DNA from: Pseudomonas sp. LS44 | Lineage (GTDB): Bacteria > Pseudomonadota > Gammaproteobacteria > Pseudomonadales > Pseudomonadaceae | Reading direction: 5' to 3' | NCBI RefSeq assembly: GCF_024730785.1 | Contig: NZ_CP102830.1 | Coordinates: 4,068,001-4,132,000 of the forward strand | DNA: 64,000 nt | In this document: positions 2,469-5,846 of the stretch, in pieces | Numbering within the stretch: position 1 is the first letter of the stretch | Layout: each line of letters begins with the position of its first letter | The notes under the pieces: model-generated | Databases searched by the model: none | Seen by the model: the letters and a program-made list of their open reading frames with translations, nothing else | What the model was told of the DNA's origin: nothing | Program-made: the position numbers and the translations under genes

Positions 2469-3821
2469 TCAAAGAAACCAGCGGTATTCGCGCGCGCTGA
2501 TCTCCTGCATGAACGCCTGATGGTCCTGGCGTTTATTGGCGCAATAGACCATCACGAATTCGTCGCCCAGCCCGGCCCGCACGGCTGGGAAATCCTCCAT
2601 GGCGCGCACCGCGGCGAGCATGTCCTGGGGGAAGTCGATGCCACTTTGCCGGTCCTGATTGAGCGGTGCGATCGGCGCGCGCGCGGCATCCAGGCCGTGC
2701 TCCATGCCGGCCAGGATCGCCGCCAACACCAGATAAGGGTTGGCGTCAGCGCCGGCCAGGCGATGTTCGATCCGCAGGTTGCGCGGGTCGGATTCGGGGA
2801 TACGGATGCACGCGTCACGGTCTTCGAAGCCCCAGCTGGCGCGACTGGCGGCGTTGACCATGGCGCCATAGCGGCGGAAGGCGTTGTGATTGGCGGCGAA
2901 GATCGGCATGCAGTGCGGCAGCCACTCCAGGCAGCCGGCAACCGCATGGCGCAGCGGTCGCTGTTCATCGGCGGCCAGCAGATTGTTGCCGGCCGCATCG
3001 TACAGGCTGACGTGCACGTGCATACCGCTGCCCGGTGCCTGCAAATAGGGCTTGCTCATGAAGCTGGCACGATGGCCATGCTTGAGCGCCACACCGCGTG
3101 TGCTGCGGCAGAACAATGCGGCCCAATCGGCGGCGCGCAGGCCGTCGTCACAGTGGGCGAAGTTGATTTCGAACTGCCCAGGACCGAGCTCGGCGGTGAT
3201 CACGTTGGCATCCACGCCCTGCTCGCGGGCCGCGTCGACCGTCTCGTGGAGCACCTCGGAGAAGCGCGACAGCCGCTCGATGTGCATGTTCGGTTGACTG
3301 TCTTCATCGCCGCATAGCGAGTCGCGTGGGAACTGCGGCAGGCCGCCTTGCAGGTGGCGATCGAACAGATAGAACTCCAATTCAAAGGCCACCACCGGAT
3401 GGATGCCGCGCGCCGCCAGCCGTTGCAGCACCCGCGCCAGCACTTCGCGCGGCTCGAACTCGATCGGCGCGGCGGTGCCGTCCGAGGTGATCAGCATCTG
3501 GCCGAGCGGCTGGCTTTCCCAGCGCACCGGCTTGAGGGTGCCCGGCACCAGCCGGCGCACGGCATCCGGGTCACCATCGCGAAAGCAGTAGTCGCCAATT
3601 TCGTACAAGCCACCTTGGGTACCCAGCAGCACGCAGTTTTGCGGCAATTTCAGCGGGCTGCCGGCGGCGACCTTTTCGAGCATCTCGATGGGGTAACGCT
3701 TGCCGTAGAAGTGCCCGGGGATATCCAGGGAAATCAGGTCGACATAACGCACGTCGGGGTGCTCGGTACGGAAGGTCCGCACCTCGCTGAGCAGATCGGG
3801 AAACGTATCGGTGCTGGTCAT
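2469..3821 (-). CDS. glutamine synthetase family protein (gamma-glutamylpolyamine synthetase-like)
   Basis: A 450-residue glutamine-synthetase-fold ligase. The catalytic-domain metal and substrate segments are recognisable as FELEFYLF, AELGPGQFEINF, PGSGMHVHVSLYD and NPYLVLAAILAGMEHGL, with an Arg-rich ATP site at RNLRIEHRLAGAD. The length and the short N-terminal domain match the PuuA/SpuI group, which joins glutamate to putrescine or related amines in polyamine breakdown, rather than GlnA (about 470 residues with an adenylylation loop). It sits 16 bases behind an XRE/cupin regulator of the PuuR type, which supports an amine-catabolism role. The exact amine substrate is unknown. Confidence 0.8.
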   Translation of the reverse strand: MTSTDTFPDLLSEVRTFRTEHPDVRYVDLISLDIPGHFYGKRYPIEMLEKVAAGSPLKLPQNCVLLGTQGGLYEIGDYCFRDGDPDAVRRLVPGTLKPVRWESQPLGQMLITSDGTAAPIEFEPREVLARVLQRLAARGIHPVVAFELEFYLFDRHLQGGLPQFPRDSLCGDEDSQPNMHIERLSRFSEVLHETVDAAREQGVDANVITAELGPGQFEINFAHCDDGLRAADWAALFCRSTRGVALKHGHRASFMSKPYLQAPGSGMHVHVSLYDAAGNNLLAADEQRPLRHAVAGCLEWLPHCMPIFAANHNAFRRYGAMVNAASRASWGFEDRDACIRIPESDPRNLRIEHRLAGADANPYLVLAAILAGMEHGLDAARAPIAPLNQDRQSGIDFPQDMLAAVRAMEDFPAVRAGLGDEFVMVYCANKRQDHQAFMQEISAREYRWFL

Positions 3822-3837
3822 GGTGCTGATCCGGGGG

Positions 3838-4392
3838 TCAGGTGAAAACCCAAAGTACGCGGGTGGGCTGATCGGTCAGGTTGGCGTAGCGGAACTGCGC
3901 GTGCGCCGGTAGCTGGAAGCTGTCGTTGGGCTGCAGGGTCACCGGCGGCTGGTCGCCCAGCCAGAGGGTCAGCTCGCCTGCGAGGACGAAGCCGCCCTGT
4001 TCGTCGCTATCGTTCAGGTGCCCTTCGCCGCTGCTGGCGCCGGGCTCCAGATGGCTTTCAAGCATGGAAAAGCCGGCCGACATGCTCGGCGAGAGCAATA
4101 CGTCGGTAATCCCGGCGCCGTAATACAGCGTGCGACGCTCGTCGGGACGCGTCACCCAGGGCAACGCCCGGGGGCGGCTGAGGCTGTAGAAATAGGTGGT
4201 GGGCACGCCGAGCGTCGCGCTGATCGCGGTGAGATCGGCAACCGTCGGCCGCGACAGGCCTCGCTCGACTTGGGAGAGAAAACCCACCGAGCGACCAATG
4301 CGCTCGGCCAGCGCACCAAGTGTGATGTTTTTGTGTTTGCGCAGATCGCGGATCAGGATTGCCAATCCTTCGATTTCTTCCTGCATGTCCAT
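3838..4392 (-). CDS. XRE-family regulator with C-terminal cupin domain
   Basis: About 184 residues. The N-terminal helix-turn-helix (LGALAERIGRSVGFLSQVERG, roughly residues 25-45) is of the Cro/CI type. The C-terminal half is a cupin sensor (LEPGASSGEGH, GGFVLAGELTLWLG, LQPNDSFQLPAHAQFRY). This architecture is shared with PuuR, the putrescine-responsive repressor. The ATG at 4392 is taken as the start; an in-frame ATG at 4386 and a TTG at 4395 are alternatives, and no strong Shine-Dalgarno decides between them. It is the first gene of a two-gene unit with the glutamine-synthetase-like gene, and probably controls it. Confidence 0.8.
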   Translation of the reverse strand: MDMQEEIEGLAILIRDLRKHKNITLGALAERIGRSVGFLSQVERGLSRPTVADLTAISATLGVPTTYFYSLSRPRALPWVTRPDERRTLYYGAGITDVLLSPSMSAGFSMLESHLEPGASSGEGHLNDSDEQGGFVLAGELTLWLGDQPPVTLQPNDSFQLPAHAQFRYANLTDQPTRVLWVFT

Positions 4393-4657
4393 CAATACGG
4401 TCTCACTTCAGACGCACAACGCTTGCACTGCCATCACCGCGCGGAGCCATCGGTCGTTCGCGGGGTTGGCCAAACTGCTGCTGGCGGAGCAGTGGGATGC
4501 CAACGGGGAGCGTGAAGTTCTATTAATTTATTTTCATGAAATATAAACAGAAAAAATTCACGCTGGCAAGCTGCGCCCGAGGCTGGGGATGCCTCACCCG
4601 CCGGCTACTCGCTCACTGTTCAGCTCTGCCAAAGCGTGGATGGGTTTTATCGAGGCG
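4393..4657. other. intergenic region upstream of the XRE regulator, AT-rich operator-like patch
   Basis: No gene is visible. Bases 4519-4558 are much more AT-rich than the surroundings and contain the 10-bp palindrome TTTCATGAAA (4532-4541) inside a longer imperfect palindrome (about 4527-4547). This is a plausible promoter/operator for the divergently placed regulator-ligase unit, by position and composition only. Confidence 0.35.
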
Positions 4658-4686
4658 AAAAAAAGCCCCGCCGAGGCGGGGCTTTT
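4658..4686 (-). terminator. intrinsic terminator of the Rsm RNA
   Basis: GCCCCGCC (4665-4672) pairs with GGCGGGGC (4675-4682). On the minus strand it is followed by seven T residues (4664-4658). The plus strand has only TTTT, so the signal points to minus-strand transcription. Confidence 0.85.
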
Positions 4687-4795
4687 GCAGACTGAACCTG
4701 ACTTCCGTTTCCTGACATCCTTGATCCATCCGTCATCCTGACGGCATCCCAGATATCCCTGTTGGTGCTCAGCGCTTCCTGCGCGGGGTCCATGT
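4658..4795 (-). ncRNA. rsmY: Rsm-family regulatory RNA (RsmY-like), CsrA/RsmA-sequestering
   Basis: Read on the minus strand, this stretch of about 138 bases contains ten GGA motifs. Several sit in small hairpin loops, such as GCGCAGGAAGCGC and GTCAGGATGAC, and it ends in a strong intrinsic terminator. That pattern defines the Pseudomonas RsmX/Y/Z RNAs, which titrate the translational repressor RsmA/CsrA. The GCGCAGGAAGCGC hairpin near the 5' end resembles RsmY. A TATCCT -10 element (4801-4806) places the 5' end near 4793-4796, and a perfect GacA box lies 45 bases upstream of it. Neither neighbouring protein gene needs this terminator. RsmY is the best guess; RsmX or RsmZ cannot be excluded from sequence alone. 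Confidence 0.9.
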
Positions 4796-4851
4796 ACAGC
4801 AGGATAACTGTGAGCGACGAACGGCAATAGCCGCCAATATGCGGCGAATCT

Positions 4852-4869
4852 TGTAAGCCTTGGCTTACA
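4852..4869. promoter_or_regulatory. GacA upstream activating sequence
   Basis: TGTAAG (4852-4857), six bases, CTTACA (4864-4869) is an exact match to the TGTAAG-N6-CTTACA element that the response regulator GacA uses at rsm genes. The palindrome extends to 11-base arms (4849-4872). It lies about 45 bases upstream of the -10 element of the Rsm RNA, a normal spacing. Confidence 0.88.
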
Positions 4870-4966
4870 AGAAAAGCAAGCGGTTGGTTGGCTCCCCAGA
4901 ATGCTGGCCACTTGCTAGACTTTGGCTGTCCGACAATCTAACAACAAAGAATTACCAGGTGGTCCC

Positions 4967-5626
4967 ATGCGAGCCGTTGCGATTGCCCTAACTTGTCTGG
5001 CGGCGAGTGTCGCCCAGCCGTGTTTCTCAGCCGGTCAAGATCAACTGAAAGACGCCAAAGTTGCCATCGAGCAAGTGTTCTGGCCGAAGCTGTATGGCAA
5101 GGGCGGCAACACGCTGTACTGCGATCAGCCGTTCACCGGCGAAAGCAGCCAGTACACCGCCAGCGCGGTATATACCGGCAAGCAGGTCAAATCGGCCCTG
5201 CGCTGCATGACGGAAAACCAGTGCCGGGTGGTCAATCCCGCTTTCGACTACCTGCTCGCCGACCTGCACAACCTGTATCCAGAGTTGACCCGCGTCGAGC
5301 TGGCGCGGCGCAATGCGCAGTTCGGCGAGGTCGGCGACGACGTGCCGAGCAAGTTCGCCGATATCGGTTGCGACCTCAAGGCGACCTTTCAGTTGATCGA
5401 ACCGCGCGACGCGGCCAAGGGCGATGTGGCGCGAGCGATCTTCTACATGCACCAGGAATACGGTCTGCCCATCGTTGGCCAGTTGCAGATGTACCAGCGC
5501 TGGAACGAGTTGGACCCGCCGGATGCCGCCGAGAAAACCCGCAACGAGCAGATCGAAATGCTCCAGGGCAACCGCAACGCGTTCATCGACAATCCCGAAT
5601 TGGCCAAGAACCTGAAACAGGATTAA
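4967..5626 (+). CDS. secreted endonuclease I family protein
   Basis: The product has 219 residues with an N-terminal signal peptide (MRAVAIALTCLAASVAQPCFSA), so it is exported. The rest matches the EndA/endonuclease I fold: FWPKLYGKGGNTLYC near the mature N-terminus, then AIFYMHQEYGLPI, QMYQRWNELDPPDAAEKTRNEQI and QGNRNAFIDNPEL, which carry the conserved metal-site Asn/His/Glu pattern of this nuclease family. The frame is open from a TTG at 4922, but the ATG at 4967 has AGGTGG (4957-4962) before it and opens a proper signal peptide. It is divergent from the Rsm RNA, and the GacA box lies in the shared upstream region. Likely role: periplasmic or extracellular DNA degradation. Confidence 0.85.
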   Translation: MRAVAIALTCLAASVAQPCFSAGQDQLKDAKVAIEQVFWPKLYGKGGNTLYCDQPFTGESSQYTASAVYTGKQVKSALRCMTENQCRVVNPAFDYLLADLHNLYPELTRVELARRNAQFGEVGDDVPSKFADIGCDLKATFQLIEPRDAAKGDVARAIFYMHQEYGLPIVGQLQMYQRWNELDPPDAAEKTRNEQIEMLQGNRNAFIDNPELAKNLKQD

Positions 5627-5700: not shown

Positions 5701-5846
5701 TAGCAGTCCGTTGAAAAACTACTGCGCTCGGCTATACCGCGTTGAAATCAGGCTAAAAATGCTCATTTACCGCTCGTAAACTGCGCTTTTTCGCCTGATT
5801 TCGCCTTGTCTAGCCTTCGCTCGCTACGTTTTTCAACGGCCTGCTA
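5701..5846. repeat. 146-bp palindromic repeat with terminal inverted repeats (MITE-like)
   Basis: The ends 5701-5718 and 5829-5846 match as inverted repeats at 17 of 18 positions, and internal segments (around GAAATCAGGC and GCCTGATTTC) also pair, so the element can fold into one long hairpin. The right end contains the stop codon of the neighbouring acyl-CoA dehydrogenase. There is no transposase. It looks like a non-autonomous repeat element. Confidence 0.7.

Follow-up and report, generated by a model that had tools for sequence, protein, structure and literature searches.

The region described here lies in a 64,000-nucleotide stretch of the Pseudomonas sp. LS44 chromosome (contig NZ_CP102830.1), which we call the window and whose coordinates are used below unless genome coordinates are specified. 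On the minus strand it holds rsmY, which ends in a terminator and is preceded by a -10-like element and a palindromic GacA box. Beyond the box, on the plus strand, lies a divergent gene of the endonuclease I family (Table 1).

Table 1. Features of the rsmY–endonuclease I region, with window positions and the evidence for each.
Feature	Position	Strand	Evidence
rsmY, 132-nt RsmY small RNA with ten GGA	4662..4793	-	RF00195 match and GGA count; 5' end is Rfam model position 1, not a mapped start
First hairpin, GGA in loop	4772..4784	-	Rfam structure line; stem invariant in 23/23 aligned sequences
Second hairpin, GGA in loop	4730..4744	-	3/5 pairs altered on both sides; outermost pair broken in 15/23
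12-nt insertion relative to the Rfam model, one extra GGA	4696..4707	-	Alignment to Rfam consensus
Intrinsic terminator, hairpin (about 4661-4686) and T run	4658..4686	-	Fold; partial stem in pattern scan
-10-like element of rsmY, TATCCT	4801..4806	-	Sequence
GacA box TGTAAG-N6-CTTACA, perfect	4852..4869		Sequence; spacing to rsmY kept in 29/29 loci
TTGCTAGACT, probable extended -10 of the nuclease gene, outside the rsmY unit	4912..4921	+	TAGACT upstream of the nuclease in 29/29 loci; promoter reading inferred
Endonuclease I family gene, divergent neighbor	4967..5626	+	Pfam PF04231 Endonuclease_1, 78.9 bits (cut-off 25)

A reading made earlier from the sequence alone had placed an Rsm small RNA of the GacA-controlled type at this locus and proposed a covariance search with the Rfam models. 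The search agreed and was more exact: the RsmY model (RF00195) scored 76.8 bits (cut-off 57), and the match covered model positions 1–121 of 121. RsmY was the best-scoring member of its Rfam clan here. No other match in the 64 kb window rose above an Rfam gathering score, and no other RsmY match in the single-contig 4.46 Mb genome passed the cut-off. The RNA does not belong to RsmZ, as the genome's single RF00166 match lies elsewhere (genome 3074489–3074622, 122.3 bits). The sequence-only reading had also counted ten GGA motifs in about 138 minus-strand bases, and we obtained the same number between 4658 and 4795, with every motif inside the RsmY match. No other 132-base stretch of the window reached ten GGA (plus-strand maximum 8; means about 1.5). 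RsmY scores in a sample of the Pseudomonas family reached 133.8 bits, and the window RsmY scored below most RsmYs of this analysis because of its 12-nt insertion.

We assembled 23 sequences for the analysis of covariation, comprising the window, 18 of 28 named loci and 4 of 30 further fetched loci. Pairing in the second hairpin was maintained across this set despite the two-sided changes. None of 500 shuffles equaled its covariation score or its percentage of paired sequences, whereas two others of the five measures were unexceptional (two-sided pair changes, 20/500 shuffles; pair types, 269/500). Folded as a single sequence, the window RsmY gave only a modest gain over shuffled controls (z = -2.64; 4/200 equally good), and its long-range pairs were not trusted. 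In the predicted ensemble four GGA were unpaired more than half of the time, among them both hairpin-loop GGA. The predicted fold also agreed with the earlier claim of a terminator at the 3' end, placing a hairpin directly before a T run; a pattern scan gave weak evidence, since its single terminator-like site did not exceed the 1.0 obtained from shuffles.

Allowing up to two mismatches, the window contained two GacA-box matches against 0.38 expected (two or more in 5/100 shuffles), and one of these was perfect. Across the 4.46 Mb genome there were two perfect boxes, one single-mismatch box, and no match to a reversed control pattern; the second perfect box was centered about 180 bases upstream of RsmZ. 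The -10 element and the distance of 45 bases from it to the box had both been described correctly in the sequence-only reading. A scan for sigma-70 patterns found no promoter match at rsmY at the stringency used, its sole promoter-like site lying elsewhere (4540–4569); support for the rsmY promoter comes from conserved spacing. The distance from box center to rsmY 5' end was 66.5 bases in 27 of 29 loci, and 65.5 and 67.5 bases in one locus each. These 29 loci are the window and 28 loci scanned with Rfam; many of them are closely related, which leaves fewer than 29 independent observations. Three of the 29 boxes carried one mismatch (P. carbonaria, P. thermotolerans, and the metagenome Pseudomonas L009).

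The remainder of the Gac/Rsm pathway was sought in the genome. GacA is encoded (312.4 bits, cut-off 280) by an ortholog that adjoins uvrC, and CsrA/RsmA is encoded by the one match in the genome (120.1 bits, cut-off 73). A search for RsmX (RF02144) gave no match among the 150 of 953 candidates that were scored, and the control genomes likewise gave none. Two candidates for a third Rsm RNA were rejected. One, at genome 913829–913947, had a sub-cut-off RsmY score of 24.7 bits and at most five GGA per 130 bases in its 3.1 kb locus; the other, at the one-mismatch box (locus L005, genome 1539511–1539528), had at most six GGA per 130 bases nearby. That box is possibly a chance occurrence and possibly another GacA target. 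RsmY and RsmZ are the two Gac/Rsm output RNAs identified for this genome.

We compared the locus among relatives using 29 named loci that were collected via the nuclease, of which 28 were scanned with Rfam and one (L034) was left out. All 28 had an RsmY above cut-off divergent from the endonuclease I gene, and L034 had a perfect GacA box. Judged by the nuclease protein, the nearest named loci were those of P. insulae, P. carbonaria and P. thermotolerans, in a search that may not have included the window's very closest records. RsmY was above cut-off in 248 of 298 sampled family genomes. A further 42 of the 298 had only a weaker RsmY (E of 0.001 or better), and two unrelated control genomes matched at that level too; we therefore relied only on the 248. 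No nuclease was found within about 1.5 kb on each side of RsmY in the 30 best-scoring loci of the family sample, and the rsmY–nuclease pairing is thus not universal. No title concerning an rsmY–endA pair or an RsmY with ten GGA was found in a title-level literature search, in which subscription journals mostly fell outside coverage.

The sequence beyond the rsmY terminator varied. Downstream of rsmY, at 2469–4395, the window encodes a regulator of the helix-turn-helix/cupin type and a protein resembling glutamine synthetase. In P. carbonaria and P. insulae this place is taken by a convergent gene for a globin-FAD-NAD protein, presumably a flavohemoprotein; the gene after it in P. carbonaria encodes a GAF/sigma-54 activator that is presumably NorR-like. 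The two flanks of rsmY evidently differ in history. In two loci of the P. mendocina group (L023:4269–4565 and L025:1480–1776), group II intron domains (RF02001, RF01998) occurred on the rsmY strand no more than about 90 bases beyond the rsmY match, which may reflect an insertion past the rsmY terminator.

The length of the window RsmY set it apart from most relatives. Among the 29 loci, a long RsmY of 130–132 nt with ten GGA was found in the window, P. carbonaria, P. insulae and P. thermotolerans, and extra alignment columns at the position of the window's insertion were also present in these three species. The remaining 25 loci had an RsmY of 118–122 nt with six or seven GGA. Similarly, 49 of 51 further loci, all picked for high score, had an RsmY of 111–122 nt with seven to nine GGA, counted on whichever strand had more GGA. 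Of 398 genus genomes sampled, 391 gave a match to a model built from the four long RsmYs. Among the matches listed, the three highest scores belonged to the window genome (146.7 bits), a genome whose RsmY is the same as in P. insulae (144.2 bits), and one with an RNA of 131 nt and 11 GGA (128.8 bits); the fourth scored 87.7 bits. Overall, the long form measured 130–132 nt with 10–11 GGA, as against 111–122 nt with 6–9 in the other loci counted. The long form appears to be restricted to one clade, and it is the one unusual feature of the window RsmY.

We considered whether the long RsmY exposes more GGA and rejected this idea. Seven chosen RNAs were compared: the window RsmY had four GGA predicted to be more than half unpaired, and the other six, four long and two ordinary, had five apiece. 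It is conceivable, though doubtful, that in a small clade (P. carbonaria, P. insulae, P. thermotolerans, the window genome, and one or more further relatives) the enlarged RsmY holds more RsmA and shifts the balance between RsmY and RsmZ. The exposure prediction, computed on single sequences without RsmA, does not support a larger RsmA load. The longer RsmY of this clade is a modest natural variant that could serve to examine how many of the GGA are important.

The divergent gene fits the endonuclease I family and falls far below the NCBIfam cut-off for deoxyribonuclease I (55.8 against 372). The sequence-only reading called its product secreted, for which the basis is an N-terminus that looks signal-like by eye. 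By comparison with consensus sequences, we read TTGCTAGACT as a probable extended -10, which may be of the RpoS type, and the nuclease gene appears to have its own promoter. The distance from TAGACT to the nuclease start codon was 49 to 70 bases across loci (the start in L007 being estimated). By eye, many of loci L008–L032 share a TTTTTTGTGACG-like block just before TTGCTAGACT or TTGTTAGACT, to which a different regulator of the nuclease may bind. On the 3' side of the gene, an imperfect inverted repeat was seen at 5703–5845 (arms near 5703–5719 and 5828–5845, by eye) that might represent one copy of a repetitive element.

The sequence-only reading had suggested that this nuclease might fall under GacA control. 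In its full form the proposal is that the box acts bidirectionally, so that GacA would activate the endonuclease I gene as well and couple the Gac/Rsm switch to extracellular DNA turnover. The box is palindromic and within a shared upstream region, in the window alone it is roughly equidistant from both start regions, and the pairing held in 28/28 scanned loci, though these loci were found via the nuclease itself. Comparison among the 29 loci argued against this proposal. The distance from box center to the nuclease TAGACT took 15 distinct values from 40.5 to 130.5 bases, a range of 90 bases, as against 65.5–67.5 to rsmY; spacing that is fixed toward rsmY and drifts toward the nuclease is the pattern expected of a box serving rsmY alone. 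In addition, the nuclease leader in the window (4922–4966) contains no GGA, and no relative of the nuclease was found near RsmY in those 30 fetched genus and family loci. Given the fixed spacing, the drifting spacing and the leader without GGA, we regard GacA control of the nuclease as unsupported and a bidirectional box as very unlikely. The relatives show that adjoining a GacA box does not suffice to put the nuclease under GacA. Slighter still is the chance that the window holds a decaying or silent RsmY copy whose role RsmZ has assumed. The low model score would fit such decay, as would the single-mismatch boxes in three of 29 loci, but the box in the window itself is perfect and its hairpins and terminator are intact. 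The second hairpin of the window RsmY also shows a compensatory exchange of U-A for C-G, and three related named species retain ten GGA, which likewise speaks against decay.

RsmY is a well-studied small RNA, thought to sequester a repressor protein once a sensor system turns the RNA on. The best explanation of the locus as a whole, to which we assign a probability of about 95%, is that it is a Pseudomonas rsmY, activated from the box by phosphorylated GacA and yielding a 132-nt RNA that titrates RsmA. Phosphorylated GacA would bind the palindrome centered about 67 bases upstream of rsmY and activate transcription of the RNA; its exposed GGA would then bind RsmA and free the mRNAs that RsmA targets. 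Family membership, the box, the terminator hairpin, the promoter spacing, the covarying hairpin, and the presence of gacA, csrA (rsmA) and rsmZ are read from the genome sequence. Transcription of the window RsmY, its GacA dependence and its RsmA binding are expected by analogy with RsmYs tested in other Pseudomonas. In P. stutzeri A1501, according to the available part of PMC8249394, RsmY bound RsmA with a Kd of 55 nM, mutation of the GGA abolished binding, and RsmY was strongly reduced in a gacA mutant.

The window RNA resembles RsmY (RF00195) in its full-length match, GGA-loop hairpins, terminator and perfect upstream box. The GacA box, its position and the GGA counts are described in the available portions of PMC4353343 and PMC4950607, and general background is given in PMC2375449, also available in part. 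In P. aeruginosa the RsmY box is placed at -75 and the RNA has seven GGA (PMC4950607, in part), whereas the window box spans 59–76 bases upstream of the 5' end and the RNA has ten. The RsmY of P. fluorescens SS101 is 118 nt long with eight GGA (PMC4353343, in part), compared with 132 nt and ten. The neighborhoods differ as well, with pqqH, cynR3 and dnr regulators named in the Figure 1 legend of PMC4353343 and endonuclease I in the window. RsmZ/PrrB (RF00166) shares an Rfam clan with RsmY and is likewise GGA-rich with a GacA box, but it has another sequence and locus, and its box is centered about 180 bases upstream. RsmX (RF02144) and RsmW are also GGA-rich, RsmA-binding RNAs of Pseudomonas, and multiple RsmX copies occur in P. 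mendocina ymp and P. stutzeri A1501 (both from the available text of PMC4950607). Set beside these systems, the window RNA is an ordinary RsmY, orthologous to an RNA that has long been known and showing a minor local difference in length.
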